Source: an uncultured Lachnospiraceae bacterium
GTDB lineage: Bacteria > Bacillota > Clostridia > Lachnospirales > Lachnospiraceae
DNA length: 36,908 nt
Assembly: GCA_947630485.1 (NCBI GenBank)
Contig: CANRHU010000033.1
Location: 1 to 36,908 of the forward strand
Direction of reading: 5' to 3'
A model generated the notes under the pieces. It was not told the DNA's origin and ran no database searches. It was given only the letters and a program-made list of their open reading frames with translations. Shown here one piece after another: positions 3,887 to 36,908 of this stretch (position 1 is its first letter; the number at the start of each line of letters is the position of its first letter). A program made the translations under genes and the position numbers.

Positions 3887-4666
3887 TCAGCGGACCGCTT
3901 CCTCGTGCACCAAATAGGTATTATAGCCGTATTCCCGAAGCCGCTTTTCCATCTGGACCGCGTTATCCATCTCGAGGAACGCGCCGGCGCGCACCTTATA
4001 ATATCCGTTCTGGTAGACGATATAGGCCGGAAATCCCTGCGACGTCAGCTGGTTATAGGCACGGACGGCCGGCTCCTTGTCCGTATAGGCCCCGACCTGC
4101 ACCTGGTAGTAGACCGGTTCTTTGGACTCCTGCCGCAGAGTCTTGAGGACGGCATCCGCGATCGCCCGCGCGATGACATCCATGTTCCCGTCAAACAGCT
4201 GATTATCCGCGTCGTTATCGATAAATCCGGTCTCGATCAGAACCGCGGGCATCCGCGTGCTGTTCAGCACAATCAGACCCGGCCGCTCCACGATCCCCTG
4301 ATCCGCAAATCCCGCGGATTTCAGATTCTCCAGAATATTCTCCGCCAGAGGCAGCGCCGCCCCTTCCTTTCCGTAAACCAGAACCTGCGCGCCGGAAGCC
4401 GTCCCCGGAACCGGCATGGCGTTGCGGTGGAAGGACACGAAATAATCGGCCCCCGACCGGTTGCCGATCTCCGCTTTCTCGTACGGCGTCTGATAGGTGT
4501 CGTCCACCCGTGTAAACATCACATCGACGCCCTCATTGGCCAGCAGTCCGCCGACCGCCAGCGCCAGATTGAGATTGTCGTTTTTCTCCTGCCGGCCGCC
4601 GTAGACGGCTCCCGGCTCCGCGCCGCCGTGGCCCGCGTCCAGAATCACTCTCTGCTTGATAGCCAC
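3887..4666 (-). CDS. N-acetylmuramoyl-L-alanine amidase with SPOR domain
   Basis: This predicted Zn-dependent amidase cleaves the bond between N-acetylmuramic acid and the peptide stem of peptidoglycan. The best start is GTG at 4666 (AAAGGAG, 7-base spacing), giving 259 residues (MAIKQRVILDAGHGG). Amidase_3 features are the Zn ligands His in DAGHGG, Glu in RQEKNDNLNLA and His in SFHRNA, plus the catalytic Glu in VLIETGFIDND. The C-terminal 75 residues are a SPOR-type domain (YYQVQVGAYTDKEPAVRAYN, YYKVRAGAFLE), which binds glycan strands lacking stem peptides. No signal peptide is visible. That fits mother-cell spore-cortex or CwlD/CwlC-type amidases, or non-classical release (inference). The operon upstream ends in a terminator at 4756-4783, so this gene needs its own promoter, which I could not pick out. 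Confidence 0.88.
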   Translation of the reverse strand: MAIKQRVILDAGHGGAEPGAVYGGRQEKNDNLNLALAVGGLLANEGVDVMFTRVDDTYQTPYEKAEIGNRSGADYFVSFHRNAMPVPGTASGAQVLVYGKEGAALPLAENILENLKSAGFADQGIVERPGLIVLNSTRMPAVLIETGFIDNDADNQLFDGNMDVIARAIADAVLKTLRQESKEPVYYQVQVGAYTDKEPAVRAYNQLTSQGFPAYIVYQNGYYKVRAGAFLEMDNAVQMEKRLREYGYNTYLVHEEAVR

Positions 4667-4755
4667 ATTGATTGCTCCTTTCAGAATTCCTCTACTCACA
4701 GGATATGAAACTGCCCGCCGCAAGGCGGCCTGTCCGGAGAAAGAAGTTTTCACAT

Positions 4756-4783
4756 AAAAAGAGGACGGCCGCTTAAGCCATCC
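4756..4783 (-). terminator. intrinsic terminator overlapping the TPR gene stop codon
   Basis: On the minus strand, GGATGGC (4777-4783) pairs with GCCGTCC (4763-4769) across a 7-base loop, followed by TC and TTTTT (4756-4760). The TAA stop at 4773-4775 sits in the loop. It marks the 3' end of the three-gene operon 4773-10636. Confidence 0.8.
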
Positions 4784-5585
4784 CCCGATATTCCTGTTTC
4801 CATGCCTCCAGCATCTGTCTGGCGCCTTCCATACGGCGGATGGGATCCTTTTGAAACATCTCATCCAGCTTTTTCAGCTCCTCAGACTGCTTTGCGGCCT
4901 CCCCCGCTTTTGCAAAATCCTCGTCCCACGCCGCCTTTAGCTCCTCCGTCACAATGGACTGGTAGCGCTCCTTCATGCCAAGCTCCGGACTGAGCAGCGA
5001 GAGATGATAGATCCGCTCCAGAACAGCCACATCCTTTAATTTCCCATAGGCCTTGTCATACGCCTGCAGGGCCTTGTCAAACTGGAAAATCCTGGCATAG
5101 CAGGCTCCCAGATTGTTCCAGACCTTTCCTAGGAACGCATCGTCCGCCTTCTGGGCCAGGAAGGACTCCAGGATCTTCTCATAACCCGCAATCGCCCGCC
5201 CGTACTGCTTAAACCCGAACAGATAATCCGCCTTGCTTTTCGCGTATTCCAGAGGCGGCATCTTCCGCAGGGCCGCCACCTTCTGGCGCAGCCGGCTGAT
5301 TTCCGTCGTAGTATAGTAATTGCACTCCTGCAGAAAGAGAAACAGCAGCTCGTCCTGATTCTCCCCGCTCTTCATCCAGCGTTCCAGCTTCAGCGCCGTA
5401 TACCCCATGTCCAGCTCTTCGCGGATGAAATCCACCAGATTCCGATCCATAAAGCCGTCCAATGCCAGCAGCGGATGGTTATAAATGGCATAACACAGCT
5501 CCTGGGAGGTATAGACATGAATCCCCAGATTCTCGATAAAAAAGGGATGACTGACCTGTTCTTTTCTGCACAGTATCACGCTCAT
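4773..5585 (-). CDS. TPR-containing protein of the DUF5716/DUF5717-type operon
   Basis: This 270-residue soluble protein has no signal peptide or membrane segment. Its middle carries tetratricopeptide-like helices: KADYLFGFKQYGRAIAGYEK, then WNNLGACYARIFQFDKALQAY, where the spacing of W/N/L/G/Y/A/F/A residues is typical. The N-terminal part (SHPFFIENLGIHVYTSQELC) and the charged C-terminus are not recognised. The TPR suggests a protein-docking role. It is the last gene of the operon; its start overlaps the upstream stop by 4 bases (ATGA at 5582-5585), so the two are translationally coupled. A partnership with the upstream Hsp70-like protein, as TPR co-chaperones dock on Hsp70, is an attractive but untested inference. 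Confidence 0.75.
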   Translation of the reverse strand: MSVILCRKEQVSHPFFIENLGIHVYTSQELCYAIYNHPLLALDGFMDRNLVDFIREELDMGYTALKLERWMKSGENQDELLFLFLQECNYYTTTEISRLRQKVAALRKMPPLEYAKSKADYLFGFKQYGRAIAGYEKILESFLAQKADDAFLGKVWNNLGACYARIFQFDKALQAYDKAYGKLKDVAVLERIYHLSLLSPELGMKERYQSIVTEELKAAWDEDFAKAGEAAKQSEELKKLDEMFQKDPIRRMEGARQMLEAWKQEYRGMA

Positions 5586-7024
5586 AACATAACCTCTTGT
5601 CTGATGACCGCCCCGGTGGAGGGATAGAATTCCCCGAATCCCATATCCTTTACCACCACGGCCATCGTATTTTCATCCAGAAACGCTGCCTGCAGCTGCA
5701 CCCGCAGAGTCTTATCGTCGCGCTCCGGGAATCCCTCCAGCGTCAGCTTCACCGTCTTTCTCCGCTTCGGGTCTGCCGGTGAAATCATAAACTCAAGATA
5801 CTGCTGGTGATCCAGAATCAGCTCCACCGTCGTCCTGGCCTCATACCAGTTGTCGCCGGCCGCCGCCAGCACCAGCTGTTCCTCTCGGTCCCTGTGCATC
5901 ACCTTTAAGGACACGGTCGTATCCAGCCGTCCGTCACAGATCATCACATACGGATAGGAAGTCTTATCCCGGCGCAGATCCGCCGCTTTGTAAGCGGCTC
6001 CCTGGACAAAGAGCCCCTGATCCACATAGACCTTACGCCTCGTGCACACCAGCTTCATAAAGTCCTTCGCCCAGTCCTGGGTCTCGAAGCCCTTGCCGGT
6101 CAGAAAGACGGAGGAAAACAGCTTCCTCTGCAGGAAACGTTCCCCGCAGGAACAGAGGATCTTATCCGCCAGCTTCACGCCTGACGGCGTATTCAGGATG
6201 TCCAGGCTGAAACCCTCGTCCAGCTTCTCCCGGTCCGCCACCACCGTCACCTGGCGCATGCCCCTCTGCACCTTCATCTCATAATAGCAAAGGAAATCCT
6301 CCGAGAGGTCAAACATTCCCACCTGGTTGTTCCAGACCTCCCGCTTCTGGCTCAGTACATAGTAGAGAAAGCTCTCCGTATGGCTGATGATCCGCACATG
6401 CTCCCTGGGAATCGCGAGACGGTCCGCGCAGTAAACCAACAGATCCAAAAGCTTCGCGCTCACCTTGGGCACGGCGATGACCAGACGCGCAATGCGGGCA
6501 GGATCGTAGCCTGGATTCTCCGCCTCAGGCGCCGGCTGCGCCTGGGACGCCGCTTCTTCCGTCTCCTCGCCGGCGTCTGCCGGCTGTCCCGCCGCCGTTT
6601 CTTCGACGGCCGTCTGCGCGGCCACACCCTGCGCGGTCTTTTGCGCCTTTCCGTCTTTCGCGGCCGCCTGCGCAGCCGCGCCCTGCGGCTCTTGTTCCTC
6701 CGCTTCCGCGCTCTCTGCCCGGTCTGCCTCGCAAACCGCCTCCGCCAGCACCTGCTCCAGGAACTTCTGCATCAGATCGAGTCCCTCATAGCGCACGCCG
6801 CCGATGGTCGCCGTCCCTTCCTTGCGCAGGAGTTTCAGAAGCTTATCCACAATGACGCCGTCCCCCGCCAGCGCGCTGGCGTAAGCATCCTGGCCGATCA
6901 GCCAGACCTCCTCGTCCTTCTTCTTGCAGACGATGGTCGGAAAGGAAAGCACCTCCCCCCGGTCTGCGCAGCACACCTGCGTATACGTGTCGCATATATC
7001 AAGACCCACTAACCGTTTTTCCAT
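5582..7024 (-). CDS. Hsp70/actin-like ATPase-fold protein (DUF5716-type)
   Basis: The 480-residue protein shows a worn Hsp70/actin pattern. There is a phosphate-1-like stretch VGLDICDTYTQVCC near the N-terminus, then IGQDAY, then RLVIAVPK and SHTESFLYYVLSQ. A phosphate-2-like MFDLSEDFLCYYEM follows, then an adenosine-site-like SSVFLTGKGFE and GLFVQGAAYKAA, which parallels the VALGAAIQA stretch of DnaK. The glycines of the usual DLGGGT are missing, so ATP hydrolysis is uncertain. Residues of about 105-190 are a low-complexity Ala/Gln/Glu-rich insert (many AAQ and AEE runs) that looks like a flexible linker. The C-terminal 110 residues form a separate beta-rich part. I associate it with the uncharacterised Lachnospiraceae family DUF5716 from memory. 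Second gene of the operon; soluble, presumably cytoplasmic. Confidence 0.75.
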   Translation of the reverse strand: MEKRLVGLDICDTYTQVCCADRGEVLSFPTIVCKKKDEEVWLIGQDAYASALAGDGVIVDKLLKLLRKEGTATIGGVRYEGLDLMQKFLEQVLAEAVCEADRAESAEAEEQEPQGAAAQAAAKDGKAQKTAQGVAAQTAVEETAAGQPADAGEETEEAASQAQPAPEAENPGYDPARIARLVIAVPKVSAKLLDLLVYCADRLAIPREHVRIISHTESFLYYVLSQKREVWNNQVGMFDLSEDFLCYYEMKVQRGMRQVTVVADREKLDEGFSLDILNTPSGVKLADKILCSCGERFLQRKLFSSVFLTGKGFETQDWAKDFMKLVCTRRKVYVDQGLFVQGAAYKAADLRRDKTSYPYVMICDGRLDTTVSLKVMHRDREEQLVLAAAGDNWYEARTTVELILDHQQYLEFMISPADPKRRKTVKLTLEGFPERDDKTLRVQLQAAFLDENTMAVVVKDMGFGEFYPSTGAVIRQEVML

Positions 7025-7057
7025 GACACACTGTTTCCTTCCATTCCCGGCCGGAGG

Positions 7058-10000
7058 CTACAAAAGCCCGTAGAGCTCCTCGACCGCCGCCGTCTTCTTC
7101 ACGTATTCCTCCATGGCCTTCTTAAGACCGGCTTCTTCCTTCAAATTCATAAACATGGACATCTGATTCAGCAGCTGGAACCGGCTGTCCTCCCCCGCGG
7201 CCGCCTTGCGGTCGCAGGCCAGACTCCCTTCCACAGCCAGCACCTGCTCCTCCCCGCGGTGCTCATAGATCCGATACTCCATGACCTCGCCTTCAAACAG
7301 CACCTTCTGTTTGACGAAAATCCCCTGATACATCCGCTTCATTTCGTCGGTGTAGAAGCGCTCCTCCTGCGGACGGATCCGCACCTGCAGATCCACGCGG
7401 GAATCCCTTTTTCCGATATACTGCAGGATCGCCTTGTCCATAATCTCCTGCGGAATGCGGACATGTGCCGCCAACGGTTTAAAGTGGGCAAATACCATCC
7501 CTTCCGCCAGCAGGACATCCACGATCGTCTGGCAGAGCTTCTTTTGCTCCTCATCCAGCTTCTCCAGATCCGCGTAATATTTGGTCAGGGCCAGCAGATA
7601 GATCGTGGACAGCTTTTCCTTCTCGATCGCCCCGTGAATCAGGCCCTCCAGATAGCGGAACACCTCCTCGCCTGCCGGCTTTCCTTCCAGGAAATAGGCC
7701 GTGCTTTTCACGGTGAAATAAGCCTTCACGATACTCTCGCTGGTCTTCTTCCGCTCCATATACAGGCTGAACACCCGGTCAATCCGGTCCGTCTCATCCG
7801 TAAACAGCATCTGGGCCAGCAGACGCTCCTCCAGATCATAGGTCTCCACATGGTCGGACACGCCGGCCAGCAGAAGCCGGTACATCTGATCCGTCGAGCC
7901 GTTATAGTGTTCGCAAAGATAATCCAGGATCACGCTGTCCGCCCTATCCTCGGCAAATACCGAATACGCCAGCGTAAGCAGAAGATCATCCTGGTCAAAC
8001 AGCTCGTTCAGGATCATGCGGCTGCACAGGCGGCGCAGCTTCTCCGCGGGCACCTGGCAGAAATACTTCCGGATCATCCCGTAGGCCTCCTCGATGTATC
8101 CGTGCCCGATCAGCGCCTCGCAGAGTGCCGTCCGCTGCGTTCTGGAAATGATCTCCTTATCCACGGACAGCAGCGGCTTCATATTCACGGACTCGTTCTC
8201 CCCGTTCTCCTCCAAAAGCTCCTGCTGATAGTAACGGATAATCTGCCCGACCAGCTTCCTGCTGTATAAAGGATGCAGCTTCAGCTTCGTCATGGCACGG
8301 TCGATCACCTGAATGTCCTCCGCCTCCGGCTTCTCCTTCTCCCCCGCCCTTCGGCAGGCGCCCAAAAGCAGCATCGCATGCTCCGGATATACCTCAAAGC
8401 ACCGCTCCTCCAGTTCCGGCTTGTGCAGAACCTCCGTCTTTTCATAATCCACATTTGTATAGCGGTTGCCGTAGGCGTCCTCGAACAGGATCCGGCTTCC
8501 CGCGAAATAAACCGGCACATAGGCCACGCCGTCCCGAATGGGATAAACGCCCTGGTCGGTCAGCTCCTCATAGCAGACCACCACATTGCGCATCCGCTTG
8601 TCCGCGCAGGCAATGCGGCAGGAATTCAGAAGGGACGGCAGAATCTGCGCCACCGGCGGATCCACCATATCCGGATAGATCATCGCGTCATAAACCACCG
8701 CCAGGTTCTGTCCGATCCTCGCTTTCAGCACCTGCTCGACGGCAAACGCGCCCATCGTCTTCTGATACTCTTTATACAGCTTGGACTCCCTGTCCATATA
8801 CCGGATCATGTTGGCATAGAGCACAGCCCTGCTGTTCTGATCCAGGCTATGGTCATAGGAGAAATACCGCAGCACCTCATCCGGCAGCAGATGTCCGTAT
8901 TCCTTCGGCAGCGAATACAGATAGTACTCATAAAGCCTTGTCAGGCTGATCTGCTCCTTCAGCGCCCTCTCATACCAGACAAAGTCGCTCTCCCTGCGGC
9001 AGTCCCCTCGGATCATCTGACCGCAGATGGACTCCAAAAGCACCTTCTGGTGCGACTTCTCATAGATCGTTTTAAGCATCCTGCACTGCAGCGGCTGGTA
9101 ATGCCTGCTGACCGCCGCAAGCTTCGCCGCCTTTTCCGCCAGCTCGTCGCGGACCTCTCCGCGTTTCGCCCCGAAATACAGCACCTGCGCCTCAAACGCG
9201 CCGACGCCCAGCATCAGCTGCGGCGCGTCGTTTAGAATCGCCAGCGCATGACAGTAGAGGAACGGGCTGTGACAGCCCCTGCCGTAGAGCACCTTCATGC
9301 GGACCAGGACGTCTGCCGGATTCTCAAAGCAGAATTTCTCCTCGCACCTCGTAAACACATAAAAGAGCGGATACTCGCCGCGGCCGTCCTCCATATATTT
9401 GCGGGAAAGGCGTCCCAGGGACTCCCAACGCTCTATATCCGGCTGCAGGCGGAGATAGACGCACTGGTAGAGACAATAGAGATCCGGCCGTTCCTGACGG
9501 TTTGAGAAAATCTCCTCACGGCACGCGTTCAGGGCCTCGAGCGCGTCCGCCTCCCGCTTTGCCAGAAGCGAAAACTCCGCCTCCAGAAGCGAAAGCCGGG
9601 CTGACTGCCCGCCGACCAGCTTAAGCTGCGCCACGGTCTCGCCCATCTGCCGGATCAGGTCGTCCGCGTCCCCCACATTGCTCTCATAGTCCAGCCTGAG
9701 CTCCAGATAGCGCTTCAGGAGACGGCCGGCAGAAGCAGATGACGCCTCCGCGCTGTCGCGCTCCTTTCCCTGATGCACCTCGATCTCCACCCTGACGGAT
9801 TCATTCAGGGTCTCAAACGTGATGCTGCCGAGATTCCGTCCGGCGTGAAGTCCTCCGACGTTCAGCTCATAGGGAAATTCAAAAACGCCGCCCTTAAAAT
9901 CCTCATCCGCAAAATTTCTTCTGTTGACCCGGATAAAGTCCCCGTCTACACGGACATTCACGGCCAGATAACCCCAGCCGCTCCTGTGCAGCTCAATCGC

Positions 10001-10636
10001 ATCCTGCCGGTTCTTCTCCAAACCGCGCAGCTGACGGCGGCAGTCCTCCACCACAAGTCCGACCGGTTTCTTTAACCCCAGCCCGATCATAAACTGCTCG
10101 ACCTGTCCATAACGGTTCCCGCGTCCCAGAAGACCGTCGTAAAGGCTGCGGACCTTCATATCCTGCATAAACGGTACATCGGCAAAATCACGGTACTCAA
10201 AAATCTGCGTCGCCGTCTCATAATTCTGCTTCGCCAGATTCGCAAAATCCTTCGGCTCCTTAAGTCTTTGCAGCGCGCGTCCGGAAACGCCTGACTGCAC
10301 CACGAAAGAATAAGGAATCTCTCTCTCACCGCTGTTGGTGACCAGATAGAAATTCCCCTCGACCCTGTCGCCGTATTCCAGATATTCACTGTCGATCTCA
10401 TAGGTGACATGATTTCTGATTCCCCCGAAGGAGCCATTCAGCACACGAACTCTCGGATTGGTAGAATAGGCAAGGCCCTTCATGTGAAGTCCGTTCTGGC
10501 TGGTAATATAAAGTTCTTTCTTTTCCAGTCCGCCCGCGGCGATCCCGACCTGAAGGAGGCTTTCCGGCTGAATGGAAATCTCCGGCGTCTCCATGTCGAT
10601 GATGCCTTTCGCGAGGCGGTTGATTCGTTCTCTCAT
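7058..10636 (-). CDS. giant repeat protein, unknown function (DUF5717-type)
   Basis: This 1192-residue protein starts at the ATG at 10636 (MRERINRLAKGIIDMETPEI). GGGTGAAAA lies upstream of it, whereas the in-frame ATG at 10651 has no ribosome binding site. Residues of about 15-125 look like a beta-sandwich domain (LYITSQNGLHMKGLAYSTN, GDRVEGNFYLVTNSGEREI, IPYSFVVQSG). The rest is almost entirely helical, with repeated short helix pairs (for example LSLLEAEFSLLAKREADALE and LLEENGENESVNMKPLL), resembling a TPR/HEAT-like superhelix. There is no signal peptide, membrane span or catalytic motif. I associate it with the uncharacterised family DUF5717 from memory. It leads an operon with the Hsp70-like and TPR proteins (gap of 33 bases to the next gene), so a shared complex is likely. 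Confidence 0.75.
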   Translation of the reverse strand: MRERINRLAKGIIDMETPEISIQPESLLQVGIAAGGLEKKELYITSQNGLHMKGLAYSTNPRVRVLNGSFGGIRNHVTYEIDSEYLEYGDRVEGNFYLVTNSGEREIPYSFVVQSGVSGRALQRLKEPKDFANLAKQNYETATQIFEYRDFADVPFMQDMKVRSLYDGLLGRGNRYGQVEQFMIGLGLKKPVGLVVEDCRRQLRGLEKNRQDAIELHRSGWGYLAVNVRVDGDFIRVNRRNFADEDFKGGVFEFPYELNVGGLHAGRNLGSITFETLNESVRVEIEVHQGKERDSAEASSASAGRLLKRYLELRLDYESNVGDADDLIRQMGETVAQLKLVGGQSARLSLLEAEFSLLAKREADALEALNACREEIFSNRQERPDLYCLYQCVYLRLQPDIERWESLGRLSRKYMEDGRGEYPLFYVFTRCEEKFCFENPADVLVRMKVLYGRGCHSPFLYCHALAILNDAPQLMLGVGAFEAQVLYFGAKRGEVRDELAEKAAKLAAVSRHYQPLQCRMLKTIYEKSHQKVLLESICGQMIRGDCRRESDFVWYERALKEQISLTRLYEYYLYSLPKEYGHLLPDEVLRYFSYDHSLDQNSRAVLYANMIRYMDRESKLYKEYQKTMGAFAVEQVLKARIGQNLAVVYDAMIYPDMVDPPVAQILPSLLNSCRIACADKRMRNVVVCYEELTDQGVYPIRDGVAYVPVYFAGSRILFEDAYGNRYTNVDYEKTEVLHKPELEERCFEVYPEHAMLLLGACRRAGEKEKPEAEDIQVIDRAMTKLKLHPLYSRKLVGQIIRYYQQELLEENGENESVNMKPLLSVDKEIISRTQRTALCEALIGHGYIEEAYGMIRKYFCQVPAEKLRRLCSRMILNELFDQDDLLLTLAYSVFAEDRADSVILDYLCEHYNGSTDQMYRLLLAGVSDHVETYDLEERLLAQMLFTDETDRIDRVFSLYMERKKTSESIVKAYFTVKSTAYFLEGKPAGEEVFRYLEGLIHGAIEKEKLSTIYLLALTKYYADLEKLDEEQKKLCQTIVDVLLAEGMVFAHFKPLAAHVRIPQEIMDKAILQYIGKRDSRVDLQVRIRPQEERFYTDEMKRMYQGIFVKQKVLFEGEVMEYRIYEHRGEEQVLAVEGSLACDRKAAAGEDSRFQLLNQMSMFMNLKEEAGLKKAMEEYVKKTAAVEELYGLL

Positions 10637-10699
10637 GTGCTTTTCACCCATCTCGTGTCTTTACATACCGCATATATTTTTATCTTAACACATTTTCCC

Positions 10700-10773: not shown

Positions 10774-11298
10774 ATGCTGTCAGAACCAAAAACGTTATAT
10801 AAGCTGATGAATCTCTATATCCTAAAGCAGGTGAATTTTCCCCTGACCAACGCCCAGCTGACCGATTTCTTCCTCGAACATGAGTACACGACCTATTTTG
10901 TCCTCCAGCAGGTTCTCAATGAGCTGCTGGAAGCCGGCCTGATCCGAACCCACTCCAGCCACAACTCCACCCGCTACGAGATCACCCGCGAGGGGGAGGA
11001 GACGCTGGAATTCTTCGGAAAGAACATCTCGAAGGCCATCATCGACGACATAGACCAGTACTTAAAGGACAACCGCTTCCGCATCCACAACGAAACGGGG
11101 ATCCTGGCCGATTACTACAAATCGACCAGCCAGGATTTCGTCGTCCATCTTGAAATCAGGGAGGGGCGCAGCAGCCTTCTCGACTTGAGCCTCTCCGTTC
11201 CCGAGCGGGAGCAGGCCGAGGCCATGTGCGCCCGCTGGAAGACCCAAAGCTCCGAAATCTATTCCTATCTGATGAAAAATTTAATGAGTGGAGAGTAA
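10774..11298 (+). CDS. DUF4364-type winged-helix protein
   Basis: The 174-residue protein matches the DUF4364 family pattern. The N-terminal 75 residues (LYKLMNLYILKQVNFPLTNA, LTDFFLEHEYTTYFVLQQVL, LLEAGLIRTHSSHNSTRYEI) read as a winged helix-turn-helix of PadR/MarR type. The remainder (DDIDQYLKDNRFRIHNETGI, DFVVHLEIREGRSSLLDLSL) is a small alpha/beta part. It probably binds DNA and acts as a regulator, but its targets are unknown. It has its own promoter and is divergent from the 1192-residue repeat gene with a 137-base gap, making that operon a natural candidate target (inference). The ribosome binding site is a run of G at 10760-10765. Confidence 0.85.
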   Translation: MLSEPKTLYKLMNLYILKQVNFPLTNAQLTDFFLEHEYTTYFVLQQVLNELLEAGLIRTHSSHNSTRYEITREGEETLEFFGKNISKAIIDDIDQYLKDNRFRIHNETGILADYYKSTSQDFVVHLEIREGRSSLLDLSLSVPEREQAEAMCARWKTQSSEIYSYLMKNLMSGE

Positions 11299-16839: not shown

Positions 16840-18402
16840 CTAATCTGACTGAGACTCCGTCTCCCCTCCGGCTTCCGTCTCCGCAGCCGCATCCGCACTG
16901 TCTGCCTGCCGCGAGATCTCTCCGTTTCCGTCCGCGCCGTCTGCCTGCCGACTGCTCTCTCCGGCCCCGTCCGCGCCGTCTGCCTGCCGACTGCTCTCTC
17001 CGGATCCGTCCGCGCTGTCTGCATGCCGGCTGCTCTCTCCGGCTCCGCCCGCGCCGTCCGACTGCCGGCTGTTCTCCCCGGTTCTGTCCGCGCCGTCCGA
17101 CTCATGGGAGGGATTTCCGTCCGCATCCGTACTGTCCGTCCCCGCGGATACATCCGCGATCGACACGCGCAGGGCAGTCGGGCCTATGTAATCAAATCCG
17201 TCCTTCAGCTCCGCGTTCAGCACAATCTGATGTTCCCCCGGCTCCAGCCCGGTCAGATCCGCCGTTATCCGGATCGAACCCGCGTCGATCGTATCCAGAT
17301 CCTCGCTGAGACCCCGGATCTGCAGAATCAGCGCCTGCTCCGCAAATGTATATTCATAGTCAGGATTCCGTCCCAGAAATTCCACACGGTCCAGACGGAA
17401 CTCATACTGTCTGGTCTCCAGGCGCTCCACATGCATGGTTACCGTGACAACCGACGGCTGGTCGGCCACAAGCGAAATATTGTCCGGCAGAAAAGCATTC
17501 AGATCAACTTCCACCACCATATCGCCGGCCGCTCCGTCGATATCGAGGATATCCCCGCTGATCGTAAGCGACGTCATATCGGCCAGGGAAGCTCTCGGTC
17601 CCACTACGGAAATGCTGCGCACGTCGCTCTCCACGCCCGTAAACCGATAACCCGGGGCCACTGTCCCGCTCACAATGAAATCGAGCGTCAGATCCTCCAC
17701 CCGCAGCACGGTCACCCGATAGGATACCTGCTGCTCACTCAGCTGCACCTTATCCCCCAAATCCAAGAGATTTCCGTTGGCGTCATAGAAGCAGACAGGC
17801 GCTTCCCCTGTGATATCCGTGTCAATACCTTCCACATCAATCTCCACGCCCAGGGAACTGATCTGCCCGATCACCGATTCCGCGCCGGTAACGCTGATCC
17901 GGGCCGGTGTCAGCTCAATGCCGCCGAGATCGTATTCCTCCGCCTCGTCGCCGACCGTGCGCACTCCCAGCGCAAACGTCTTCGTCTGAATCGGTTCTGT
18001 CTGAATCCGAACCACTGCCGGGCTGACCGACACCGAACCGCTGACGACCAGAAGCCGCGCCATGTAGGAGGACGGTTCCGCCTGCACGGGAATCGCTCCC
18101 GTCACATCGTACAGCTGTGCCAGATCCGCGTACGCGGCGAAATCGCTCGCCGTCACACGCGCCTCGTCCCTCACATGAATTTTATAGCTGACAGTCACCG
18201 AATTCCGTCCGACCGGCTCATACGTGAGTCCCGCCTCGGTCAGCACATCCGCGTTGGTGAACTCCACCGGAACCGTCTGCGTCACAGTCATCATCGGATT
18301 GGAGACGTTCACCATGATCAGCCAGGTAAACACAGCCAGGATAACGGACAGAATTTTGAGCGTCAAATTATGTGTCAGCATCTGTTTCAGCTTTTCTTTC
18401 AT
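16840..18402 (-). CDS. cdaR: YbbR-domain protein, regulator of CdaA
   Basis: CdaR binds and tunes the diadenylate cyclase CdaA at the membrane. The 520-residue protein has a short cytoplasmic N-terminus, one signal anchor (LKILSVILAVFTWLIMVNVS), and several extracytoplasmic YbbR-like beta repeats. These are recognisable from recurring patterns such as VPVEFTNADVL, TFALGVRTVGDEAEEYDLGG and YRFTGVESDVRSISVVGP. The ATG at 18402 has GGGAGG upstream and lies 35 bases inside the end of cdaA, so the genes are coupled. Unusually, the last 100 residues are about five degenerate 13-residue repeats of the form ADGADGAGESSRQ, hydrophilic and probably disordered. Standard CdaR proteins end soon after the YbbR domains. 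Confidence 0.93.
   Translation of the reverse strand: MKEKLKQMLTHNLTLKILSVILAVFTWLIMVNVSNPMMTVTQTVPVEFTNADVLTEAGLTYEPVGRNSVTVSYKIHVRDEARVTASDFAAYADLAQLYDVTGAIPVQAEPSSYMARLLVVSGSVSVSPAVVRIQTEPIQTKTFALGVRTVGDEAEEYDLGGIELTPARISVTGAESVIGQISSLGVEIDVEGIDTDITGEAPVCFYDANGNLLDLGDKVQLSEQQVSYRVTVLRVEDLTLDFIVSGTVAPGYRFTGVESDVRSISVVGPRASLADMTSLTISGDILDIDGAAGDMVVEVDLNAFLPDNISLVADQPSVVTVTMHVERLETRQYEFRLDRVEFLGRNPDYEYTFAEQALILQIRGLSEDLDTIDAGSIRITADLTGLEPGEHQIVLNAELKDGFDYIGPTALRVSIADVSAGTDSTDADGNPSHESDGADRTGENSRQSDGAGGAGESSRHADSADGSGESSRQADGADGAGESSRQADGADGNGEISRQADSADAAAETEAGGETESQSD
16890..17110 (-). repeat. 39-bp in-frame tandem repeat in the 3' end of cdaR
   Basis: About five imperfect copies of a 39-base unit encode 13-residue blocks (ADGADGAGESSRQ and variants). 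On the plus strand the unit includes CCGTCTGCCTGCCGACTGCT followed by CTCTCCGG. Because the unit is a multiple of three, copy number can change without breaking the frame. Confidence 0.85.
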
Positions 18403-19258
18403 CCTTCTGCCTCCCTCTCCATATTCTGAACCGCTTGCTCTGGCCGGAATCGGAGGCCTTATTGGCCGCCAGCGCCTTGCTCAAGGTCTCCGGATCGCTG
18501 ATCCTTCTCAGCTCTCCGCCCTCTGCCAGGGAGATATGCCCGGTCTCCTCGGACACCACGATCGTCAGGCTGTCCGTCACCTCGCTGATACCCACGGCGG
18601 CACGGTGCCTGGTCCCCAGGTCCTTGCTGATGCTGCCGTTGTCCGAAAGGGGCAGATAGCATGTAGCCGCCGTCACCCGGTTGCCGCGGATCACAACCGC
18701 GCCGTCATGAAGCGGCGTATTATGTTCGAAAATATTGATCAGCAGCTGACTGGTCACCATGCCGTCAATCTCGATACCGGTGCGCTCGATATCCTTCAGG
18801 GAAGCCTCCCTCTCGATCACCATGAGCGCCCCCGTCCTGGCCTTCGCCAGCTCCATGGACGCGCGCACCAGTTCGCTGATGGTCTTCTCCGTAAACCGGG
18901 AATCCGACTGCCGGTCCGCCTCGAACGGCAGAAGGTTTGTAAGCAGGTTCCTGCTTCCCAGCTGCTCCAGCGCGCGCCGCAGCTCCGGCTGGAAAATGAT
19001 GATCAGCGCTGTCGTCGCCACAAAGGCTACGTTCTGCATGATCCAGAGAATCGTATAAAGCTTCAGCATCCAGGCGAACAGCGCGAAGACCAGAATCACC
19101 ACAAGTCCCCGCAGAAGCGTCCACGCGCGCGTGTTCTTAATCCACACCAGGATCTCATAGATCAGAAAGGCAATGATGATGATCTCCAGAATATTCGTCT
19201 TGGTAATCTGTGGCAGAAAAGACAGCCACTCATAAAGCGTTTCCATGATCTGTGCCAC
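18368..19258 (-). CDS. cdaA: membrane diadenylate cyclase
   Basis: CdaA makes the second messenger c-di-AMP from two ATP, controlling potassium and osmolyte balance and cell-wall state. The 296-residue protein has three N-terminal hydrophobic spans (ILEIIIIAFLIYEILVWI, LLRGLVVILVFALFAWML, MQNVAFVATTALIIIFQP). A DisA_N cyclase domain follows, with the catalytic NTPLHDGAVVIRGNRV (DGA motif) and GTRHRAAVGISEVTDS (RHR motif). The tail after about residue 260 is basic and short. The start GTG at 19258 has GGTGGTGAG upstream; an ATG four codons later is the alternative. It is third in the operon, 28 bases after the 318-residue membrane protein gene, and overlaps cdaR. Confidence 0.96.
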   Translation of the reverse strand: MAQIMETLYEWLSFLPQITKTNILEIIIIAFLIYEILVWIKNTRAWTLLRGLVVILVFALFAWMLKLYTILWIMQNVAFVATTALIIIFQPELRRALEQLGSRNLLTNLLPFEADRQSDSRFTEKTISELVRASMELAKARTGALMVIEREASLKDIERTGIEIDGMVTSQLLINIFEHNTPLHDGAVVIRGNRVTAATCYLPLSDNGSISKDLGTRHRAAVGISEVTDSLTIVVSEETGHISLAEGGELRRISDPETLSKALAANKASDSGQSKRFRIWRGRQKDERKAETDADT

Positions 19259-35214: not shown

Positions 35215-36908
35215 TCACGCAAGCCCGCCATCCCCCAGAATCCGGTTGATCTCATAATACGCCGGCGACTGCGCCAGCTCCGACACCTTCCAGCGCATCA
35301 GTTCATCCTCATAGACGCGAAACGTCTCATCGTCAAAAAGCACCCACTTGACAAGATCAAAGGCCCCCGGATGCTCCGCTGTGAACTGTTTCACCGTGCG
35401 GACGGCAATCCCGGCCGCTTCCGCAAGCGGATAGCCGTAGGCTCCGGTGGAAATGGACGGGAACGCGATGCTGCGAATCCCATGGTCCAGCGCCAGCTGC
35501 ATACAGGAGCGGTAACAGGAAGCCAGAAGCTCTGCCTCTTTCGCCGACCCGCCGTTCCAGACGGGACCGGGCGTATGGATCACGTTCCGGCACGGCAGCC
35601 GATAAGCTCCGGTAATCTTCGCCTCGCCGGTTCTGCAGCCGTGAAGTTTTCTGCACTCCCAAAGGAGCTTTGGCCCTGCCGCCCGGTGGATCGCGCCGTC
35701 TACGCCCCCTCCGCCCAAAAGACTGTTATTCGCCGCGTTTACGATTGCGGTCACCCCATGATCCTTCGTGATGTCGCCTTTCACAGCCTCAAACTTCACC
35801 GCAGGCACACCGGGCGCCGCGGCGTTCTCATCCTTCCACCGCATTTCAATATACTTTCTTTCCCAGTCCGGATCACGATAATGACCATACTCACTCATCT
35901 GGCAGCCGCGGCACAGATCGCCGGCCATCTCCAGGATCACATCCGAAAGCTCCAGGTTCCGTTTCCATTTCTCCTCAATCGCCTCATAGCCCAAAAGCGC
36001 GCCAAGGATATTGCCGGTGACCGCTCCGGTGGAATCACTGTCGCCTCTGTGGTTCACCGCCGCGATCACTCCGGCCGAAAAATCATCCTGATGACGCAGG
36101 GCGCAGTAAACCGCAATCGCCAGGGTCTCTTCGGCGACCCAGCCCTCGCCGAGCTGATGGATATTCTCCAGATCCGGCCTGTCATTCTCCGAAAGGCGGA
36201 CGGCCCGGTCAATGATATCGGTCAGTTCTTTTATGTGAGCGTCGTCCGCATAGATAGAGGCGACGGTATCCCGCGCTTCCAGGACGATCTGCTTAAGATT
36301 CGGGGCCTGCGCCTGCCGCGCGGCCTCTGTCTGCGGCGTCTCCCCGCCCGGATGCGCTGCCTGCGCCTGCTGCGCTGCCTCTGTCTGCTGCGCGGCAGCC
36401 GGTCCGTCCTTCTCCGGGTACACAAGCCTGCTGATGATATGCGTCAGCATCGCGGCCGGCATATACCCGAGAGAATGCTTATGGGTAATCGCGGCGATCT
36501 TCGCGCCCTCCTCGTCAATCACCTTGATCGGCGTACCGTGATAATCTATCAGCCCCATCGGCGCCACCCGCATCACGCCCCCGCAGCCCTTGCTGCTGTT
36601 TTGGGCCTCGCCGCCTTTCCGGATCGCGTGAAGCGCCGACATGCAGGTAATGCCCGGCGCGCGGCTGCTGTAAAGTTCAGGCACATCGCACAGCCAGGAA
36701 ACGCTTCCGCCCATGATGCCTCCGGCGCCAAGCTGCGCCCTTGCCTTCTCAAAAGACATCTCCTGGGTACGAAGCCAGTCAAGATACGCGTTCCCGACAT
36801 ATGCGTGCGGAGCCGCGCCTATCCCGCGCATCGCTCCCCTGGTACTTCCCATTAAGAGCCCGTTCGCTGTAAACAGCGTCATCTGCGTATCATCGGAGAT
36901 CAGCGCTT
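35215..36908 (-). CDS. ADP-ribosylglycohydrolase / macrodomain fusion (5' end beyond window)
   Basis: At least 564 residues are visible; the frame is still open at the right edge. The N-terminal part is an ADP-ribosylglycohydrolase (DraG/ARH-like). It has the metal-binding [16 protein letters not shown] right at the edge, [16 protein letters not shown], and the second metal site [20 protein letters not shown]. These enzymes remove ADP-ribose from targets. Residues of about 160-205 form an Ala/Gln-rich linker inside the domain. From about residue 355 a macrodomain follows ([70 protein letters not shown]), an ADP-ribose-binding and hydrolysing fold of MacroD type. Both parts look intact. The gene lies upstream of recO in the same direction, 115 bases away. 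Confidence 0.93.

Follow-up and report, generated by a model that had tools for sequence, protein, structure and literature searches.

A probable pseudo-Hsp70, a large scaffold-like protein and a TPR-like protein in a Lachnospiraceae bacterium, apparently the remnant of a larger multi-Hsp70 operon

An uncultured Lachnospiraceae bacterium encodes, on contig CANRHU010000033.1, three neighbouring minus-strand genes whose products are a DUF5717 protein and predicted scaffold (1192 residues, 7058..10636), a DUF5716 protein (480 residues, 5582..7024) and a tetratricopeptide repeat (TPR)-like protein and predicted adaptor (270 residues, 4773..5585). The whole stretch analysed, referred to as the window, comprises 36,908 nucleotides, and the three genes are referred to as the triad. 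They were confirmed where the original prediction had placed them, by open reading frame (ORF) calls together with Pfam matches for the first two and a TPR_12 match for the third. DUF5716 is a member of the Hsp70 superfamily by fold and by sequence homology and, judging from the residues it has lost, is very probably an ATPase-dead Hsp70. The triad apparently goes back, by reduction, to a larger multi-Hsp70 machine not described so far, which is encoded in sister families of the same order, where the gene order is DUF5717 (one or two ORFs), H1, GRPE, DUF5716, H2, HVWA and TPR; H1 and H2 denote the operon Hsp70s, HVWA an Hsp70-VWA fusion and GRPE a GrpE-domain protein. "Family" denotes the genome group f1 of the window, probably Lachnospiraceae.

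The window protein matches DUF5716_C in Pfam with an E value of 2.8e-102 (342 bits against a gathering score of 34.7). Its AlphaFold2 model has the Hsp70 fold, with a nucleotide-binding domain (NBD) and the beta part of a substrate-binding domain (SBD-beta) in Hsp70 order. Residues 3-480 of the model align to residues 2-503 of DnaK over 379 aligned residues, the SBD included. The best 50 fold matches listed are all Hsp70-family proteins by title, and structures of Ssz1 and the ribosome-associated complex (RAC; 5mb9, 4gni and 6sr6) are among the top ones. An actin-filament protein of the FtsA or MreB kind was rejected as first choice on the strength of this list and of the alignment through the SBD, although the absence of other actin-like families from the best 50 listed excludes nothing. 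An SBD-beta is not known as a feature of the actin family. The "Hsp70/actin-like fold" proposed from the sequence alone was thus borne out and narrowed, the model being read specifically as an Hsp70 with a substrate-binding beta domain and not as a generic actin fold.

At the sequence level, the family DUF5716 profile aligns collinearly with pooled Hsp70s in hhalign (probability 96.9%, E 1.5e-10), whereas all ten control pairs remain at or below 0.5%. The profile of a sister-family intermediate finds 2v7y with an E value of 1.4e-11. Some results weigh against so direct a relationship. When single groups are used, the probability is 96.1% with H2, 87.9% with DnaK, 76.6% with HVWA over part of the NBD, and 0.4% with H1; for the SBD part alone it is 90.2% with H2, 2.6% with DnaK and 0.5% with H1. 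A HMMER search of PDB sequences with the family profile gave chance matches only and no Hsp70. The link between DUF5716 and Hsp70 depends on the sister-family intermediates and on a predicted structure.

The nucleotide site was compared in a residue alignment of 7 DnaK, 30 HVWA, 35 H1, 34 H2, 36 sister DUF5716 and 39 family DUF5716 rows, with columns mapped from the DnaK of the window's genome and named by E. coli DnaK residue numbers. The HVWA set probably includes one ordinary DnaK, the 624-residue ORF of region L164 (the VWA motif is absent from one HVWA row, and the DnaK profile gives one row 1147 bits), which shifts the counts of 30 and 99 used here by one and is absent from the trees. 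All DnaK, HVWA, H1 and H2 rows contain the equivalents of K70, E171, D194, G196-198, T199 and D201. Among the 75 DUF5716 rows, those of K70, G198 and D201 are never found, that of E171 occurs in 4/36 sister and 0/39 family rows, and that of T199 in 3/36 and 2/39, respectively. In the degenerate phosphate-1 motif VGLDICDTYTQVCC (residues 6-19, 6968..7009), G10 is kept in 0/39 family rows. The original prediction had stated that the phosphate-2 glycines are lost, and for the motif MFDLSEDF (residues 237-244, 6293..6316) this applies to the family at large: G196 is present in 2/39, G197 in 5/39 and G198 and D201 in 0/39 rows, while the glycines are kept in 99/99 H1, H2 and HVWA rows. The degenerate adenosine motif LTGKGFE (residues 308-314, 6083..6103) has its first glycine in 39/39 family rows, and its second glycine and Ser/Thr in 0/39. 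A further motif quoted in that prediction is likewise present, at residues 337-347. The operon Hsp70s are not uniform either: the E267 position is altered in H1 (0/35) and H2 (0/34), and their ATP sites are therefore not identical to that of DnaK.

Beyond the motifs, DUF5716 has lost whole structural elements. At the approximate site of lobe IIB (residues ~270-280, 6185..6217), 24 residues remain in 39/39 family rows; DnaK has 97 here, and the 36 sister DUF5716 rows have a median of 94 (86-97). The interval between the phosphate-2 and adenosine motifs spans 60-78 residues in 92 family DUF5716 rows and 68-72 in eight more family rows that branch deeply or are fused; it spans 117-150 in DUF5716 of the operon-bearing sister genomes examined, 139 in L117, the nearest operon-bearing relative, and 145-146 in five H2 rows. 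Lobe IIB is a docking site of GrpE, and it is missing in the same family in which the GrpE gene is missing from the locus, a joint absence that counts as a single evolutionary coincidence and not as many. The SBD-beta-like domain (residues 360-480, 5585..5947) is all-beta in the model and aligned to the DnaK SBD; this segment is conserved and of full length (96 residues versus 98 in DnaK). The alpha-helical lid is absent, as the protein ends right after the last SBD strand. The window protein also carries a low-confidence NBD insert (residues 119-168, 6521..6670; predicted local distance difference test score, pLDDT, below 50), which is Ala/Glu/Gln-rich, appears disordered and corresponds mostly to gaps in a 92-row family alignment. 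DUF5716 is longer by varying amounts in the closest relatives of the window, and has about 407 residues in Hungatella and Enterocloster loci.

The larger operon was analysed in 29 single-locus sister regions (L117-L122, L126-L128 and L137-L156), of which 24 contain H1, GRPE, DUF5716, H2, HVWA and TPR in this order, a few with an extra intervening ORF call; L142, L144, L153, L155 and L156 contain a partial operon. A further 21 regions come from eight genomes (G404, G393, G016, G452, G464, G501, G419 and G417; six of family f5), in which the genes are split into two to five pieces or lie on contig fragments. In L119, the Pfam assignments are HSP70 for H1 (5.6e-78) and H2 (2.4e-63), GrpE for GRPE (3.4e-12), and HSP70 (4.5e-96) plus VWA (1.2e-10) for HVWA. 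The GRPE profile also matches the Geobacillus GrpE 4ani (3.1e-5). The DTTGS sequence resembling a metal-ion-dependent adhesion site is found in 26/30 HVWA rows, with another motif caught first in three and none in one. In L117 (G015:C25:30000-49000), the TPR and Hsp70-VWA genes are each split into two ORFs (6205-7231 and 7340-9384), which may reflect decay or an assembly error. The sister-family operon, in which three Hsp70s with retained catalytic residues share a locus, apparently encodes an unstudied chaperone machine of its own.

In the trees, DUF5716 joins H2 in a clade with support 100, and a clade of H2 with HVWA is rejected (approximately unbiased (AU) test, p 1e-6). Family DUF5716 joins the operon-bearing L117 with support 100/99, and sister DUF5716 as a single clade is rejected (AU p 2.4e-5). 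These placements are to be read with the long DUF5716 branches in mind, about which the tree program warns, and the joint with the H2 branch is poorly supported (87/44) in the tree that places family DUF5716 with L117. From this pattern, DUF5716 probably arose beside the second operon Hsp70, H2, by what was probably a duplication of it. Whether the family retains operon Hsp70s was followed in a PF00012 census of 13 family genomes, with results given among the matches listed. The genome of the window has DnaK, a 563-residue Hsp70 and an MreB-sized frame, and in G309 the two matches are DnaK and an MreB-sized frame. The family contributed 15 further Hsp70 regions, and the frames of 14 were scored, that of L199 having been missed; the scored frames reach at most 211 bits with the H1 or H2 profiles and at most 528 with HVWA, compared with true-member scores of at least 873 (H1), 900 (H2) and 708 bits (HVWA). 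The DnaK profile is best for 12 of the 14. L194 (G141:C12, 499 residues) and L195 (G305:C27, 554 residues), divergent Hsp70-like frames that no profile clearly claims, tie between DnaK and HVWA at low score. Since operon Hsp70s were not found among the matches listed for the family genomes examined, loss within the family is the simplest account. The reverse direction, with the triad first and the other Hsp70s added later, was rejected on two grounds: Hsp70s in general have lobe IIB and the ATP site, and family DUF5716 joins L117.

The TPR-like protein matches TPR_1 (E 1.1e-5) and TPR_12 (E 1.2e-5), both significant though below their gathering scores, in agreement with the repeats proposed earlier. 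DUF5716 and TPR are joined in a single frame of 690-727 residues in five family genomes (G304, G354, G289, G275 and G308), and four of these ORFs were confirmed to encode both.

DUF5717 is matched by DUF5717_N (PF18984; E 1.2e-256, 854 bits) and DUF5717_C (PF18983; E 1.3e-89, 301 bits), each against a gathering score of 25. Its start is assigned to the ATG at 10636, which fits the alignment of relatives, with a second ATG at 10651. The AlphaFold2 model (pLDDT 84.4, predicted template modelling score 0.58) comprises a PapD/MSP-like beta-sandwich (residues 20-114, 10295..10579), a second beta-sandwich (residues 193-289, 9770..10060), an alpha-solenoid (residues 297-1066, 7439..9748) with a beta insert at residues 672-735, and a C-terminal beta domain (residues 1068-1140, 7217..7435). 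The beta domain followed by a helical superhelix that had been read from the sequence is recovered, and the insert and the C-terminal domain are additional. In a fold search, the beta-sandwiches match Hydin/central-pair, MSP and PapD-like domains, and the solenoid profile resembles sister-family TPR proteins (hhalign probability 91.1 over 95 columns). HMMER searches of PDB sequences with the DUF5717 profile, or with its N-terminal part, gave chance matches only. The ciliary C1 central pair entry 7n6g occurs in both fold lists, as DUF5716 matches its Hsp70A chain and DUF5717 matches a beta-sandwich chain of it; this is probably a coincidence. DUF5717 frames of about 1090-1110 residues in some family genomes (G282, G284, G313, G320, G363, G366, G371 and others), in which the DUF5717_N match stops at about 750-780, suggest a shorter solenoid variant. 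L129 (G259, 7387-9948) encodes an 853-residue homologue without the N-terminal beta-sandwiches, and the gene upstream of it resembles, by eye, an S-adenosylmethionine synthetase.

The original prediction had called for a survey of genomes, in which the three genes proved to be together in nearly all family members; with the Hsp70 fold of the model, neither of the outcomes that would have refuted that prediction was observed. PF18980 (DUF5716) is matched in 118/120 family genomes, PF18984 in 119/120 and the TPR protein in 118/120; G326 has none of the three matches, and G330, whose DUF5717 match ends 40 bases from the contig end, has neither DUF5716 nor TPR. DUF5716 lies on one contig with DUF5717 in 114 of 118 family genomes (not in G268, G285, G293 and G295) and with TPR in 117 of 118 (not in G320), the five one-frame genomes included. 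Of 55 short family loci, 49 gave ORF calls for the complete triad, and the remaining six have a missing ORF call or reach a contig end. In the sample of the order, PF18980 is matched in 66/147 and PF18984 in 68/147 genomes, with both in 65; the two share a contig in 50 of these genomes and are on separate contigs in 15, of which 13 belong to f5. In the class sample (n=243), ten genomes exceed the cut-off for each of the two, all of them family members, with one marginal PF18984 match elsewhere. The phylum sample gave 4/299 positive genomes, all of the family, and the control genomes 0/14. The triad is near-universal in the sampled family, and a housekeeping role not yet described is therefore likely.

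These data lead to a chaperone or scaffold complex, reduced and without need for ATP, as the best-supported reading, with Ssz1 as the nearest working analogy. The "dedicated chaperone or scaffold machine" of the original prediction survives in the degenerate Hsp70, the gene set and the TPR and scaffold-like partners; an Hsp70 ATPase machine is unlikely in the family, since its DUF5716 lacks the lid, lobe IIB and most residues of the ATP site, and the locus has no dedicated Hsp70 or GrpE gene. The ancestral operon would have had seven to eight genes: DUF5717 (one or two ORFs), Hsp70, the GrpE-domain protein, DUF5716, the second Hsp70, the Hsp70-VWA fusion and TPR. Members of the window's family no longer have the GrpE gene or the other operon Hsp70s at this locus, and their DUF5716 has lost lobe IIB as well. 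On balance, it is rather probable that this reduction left an ATP-independent three-subunit complex, in which DUF5717 would be the large scaffold, the pseudo-Hsp70 DUF5716 would bind an extended peptide or a segment of a partner in its lidless SBD-beta and provide, in its old NBD, a rigid platform for docking, while the TPR protein would act as adaptor. Clients might be held at low affinity and then released passively or passed to the housekeeping DnaK. The wider proposal is held more tentatively, as possible: an undescribed dedicated chaperone machine of the order, combining a scaffold and a pseudo-Hsp70 with three further Hsp70s, a VWA arm and a GrpE-domain protein of its own, would have been reduced in one family to an ATP-independent core kept by almost all members, with the Hsp70 fold turned into a fixed binding module without nucleotide, exchange factor or lid.

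Several observations weigh against this account. The equivalents of D8 (33/36 sister, 39/39 family) and D194 (33/36 and 30/39) are largely kept, and sister DUF5716 retains those of G10 (33/36) and G196 (28/36); because of this, DUF5716 may, by analogy with Ssz1, bind ATP without hydrolysing it. Conservation of NBD residues 221-240 and 301-340 equals that of the final 20 residues and exceeds that of the remaining SBD, for which reason the old NBD surface may be the main working part. The triad parts often lie on separate contigs in f5, where tight clustering is thus not needed. No J-domain was found among the matches listed for the sister operon proteins scanned, which is unusual for an Hsp70 machine. 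Finally, homology, motif and lobe loss, gene order, ancestry, co-occurrence and fusion are computational observations; the three-protein complex, peptide binding, client handling and chaperone action are what we infer from them.

Among the alternatives, the triad could act as a fixed module for client capture, from which substrates are relayed to the housekeeping DnaK in the way that yeast RAC (Ssz1-Zuo1) delivers nascent chains to Ssb. Ssz1, according to passages of PMC7083937, has an SBD-beta, no lid and no ATP hydrolysis, and Ssz1/RAC structures rank among the best fold matches of the DUF5716 model; in G309, moreover, DnaK is the only Hsp70 partner found among the PF00012 matches listed. 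A relay is nonetheless unlikely, with neither a J-domain match (none at E<=1) nor a ribosome-binding element identified in the triad, and the co-occurrence is uninformative, as DnaK-type frames or fragments occur throughout. It is rather improbable that the old Hsp70 is a mere building block of a large non-chaperone assembly organised by the PapD/MSP/Hydin-like domains and solenoid of DUF5717. The loss of ATP-site residues, lobe IIB and lid, the strong NBD conservation, the matches of the beta-sandwiches and the DUF5716-TPR fusion would all fit such a structure, but a conserved SBD of full length is not required of a mere brick, and the operon of the relatives encodes a GrpE-domain protein besides three Hsp70s in which the catalytic residues are kept.

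A chaperone-based conflict or defence system of the GAP1-N2 GTPase kind, with HSP70 and GrpE (Kaur et al. 2020), is very improbable. Passages of PMC7159879 describe a theme in which HSP70 and GrpE are accompanied by a second, SBD-less HSP70 and by an FNIII protein with a DnaJ or TPR fusion, and in PADLOC sister H2 and HVWA weakly match PDC-M61B and sister TPR weakly matches PDC-M71B and PrimPol. The triad proteins have no PADLOC match, GAP1-N2 (PF20013) occurs in 3/20 system-bearing genomes and each time on a contig other than that of the operon, and presence in 118/120 family genomes resembles a core gene and not a defence island. Separately, G486:C342 carries a GAP1-N2 match and a further Hsp70 on one contig, apart from the DUF5716 operon of that genome. 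A sporulation-specific assembly factor is scarcely credible: SpoIVA matches occur in 85/120 family genomes, but DUF5716 is kept in 34 of the 35 without one, and the idea is largely refuted by this distribution.

As for the locus, the triad is likely, from its gene arrangement, to form one transcription unit. The overlaps and shared terminator previously cited for this were confirmed in part: the DUF5716 stop and TPR start overlap by 4 nucleotides (5582..5585, minus strand), as in 35/35 near loci with both ORFs called, whereas DUF5717 and DUF5716 are separated by a 33-nucleotide gap and the terminator-like hairpin at the end of the TPR gene (4760..4786, minus strand) is weak, 16 such sites occurring in the region against 6.6 in shuffles. 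Strongly hydrophobic stretches are absent from all three proteins (the best Kyte-Doolittle mean over 19 residues is 1.65), and a cytosolic location is therefore likely. The divergent neighbour is a DUF4364 winged-helix-like gene (10774..11298, plus strand; PF14277, E 8.1e-60). It lies upstream of the triad, at up to ~1.9 kb, in 31/39 near loci, the remaining eight beginning less than 500 bases from the triad or inside it; it was rejected as a system member, having no match in the sister-family regions, several of which end at DUF5717. The amidase gene at 3887-4864 was rejected as a fourth subunit; it adjoins the triad in 9/39 near loci, some others ending too soon. Rfam and tRNA searches found nothing. 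Elsewhere in the window, an ADP-ribosylglycohydrolase domain and a Macro domain share a single ORF (35215-36882, minus strand), and a YbbR-like gene adjoins a CdaA-like (DAC) gene (16840-19258, minus strand), presumably the usual c-di-AMP cyclase pair.

By score, the two larger triad proteins belong fully to the Pfam families DUF5716 (PF18980) and DUF5717 (PF18984/PF18983), listed there as of unknown function. In line with the original prediction, no paper on either was found by name in the literature searched, the single one listed being unrelated by its title, and none by subject that describes the sister operon, judged mostly from listings. The GAP1-N2 systems of Firmicutes and actinobacteria (Kaur et al. 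2020, PMC7159879) come close to that operon in content, with HSP70, GrpE, a second HSP70 and FNIII-DnaJ/TPR; they differ in that GAP1-N2 is on the operon's contig in 0/20 genomes, and DUF5716 and DUF5717 are unnamed in the relevant passages of that paper. In CnuD of the CoCoNuT systems, bacteria offer a precedent for an Hsp70 domain that is a poor ATPase: passages of PMC11090510 describe an Hsp70-like NBD/SBD with HEAT-like repeats, whose ATP hydrolysis is judged very poor at best. CoCoNuTs are McrBC-related restriction systems, whereas no McrBC-type domain was among the matches listed for the operon proteins scanned.

DUF5716 shares with DnaK and canonical Hsp70s the NBD and SBD-beta fold and, via the sister-family intermediates, common descent. 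It differs in having lost most ATP-site residues, the lid and lobe IIB, at a locus without a J protein or GrpE gene. Closer is Ssz1 of RAC, likewise a lidless atypical Hsp70 with an SBD-beta and a partner protein, Zuo1; in the passages of PMC7083937 on this complex, Ssz1 binds but does not hydrolyse ATP, its SBD-beta is complemented by its partner, and this partner is a J protein on the ribosome. DUF5716 has no lobe IIB, and its neighbours are scaffold-like and TPR proteins, with no J-domain partner found among the matches listed. Two families of unknown function thereby gain a fold, an ancestry and a testable role, and the larger sister-family operon with three Hsp70s and a GrpE-domain protein, invisible from the window alone to the original prediction, comes into view. 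The order of losses, with most ATP-site residues gone already in sister DUF5716 and lobe IIB gone in the family whose locus also lacks the other Hsp70s and the gene for the GrpE-domain protein, offers a natural experiment on which parts of an Hsp70 serve what.

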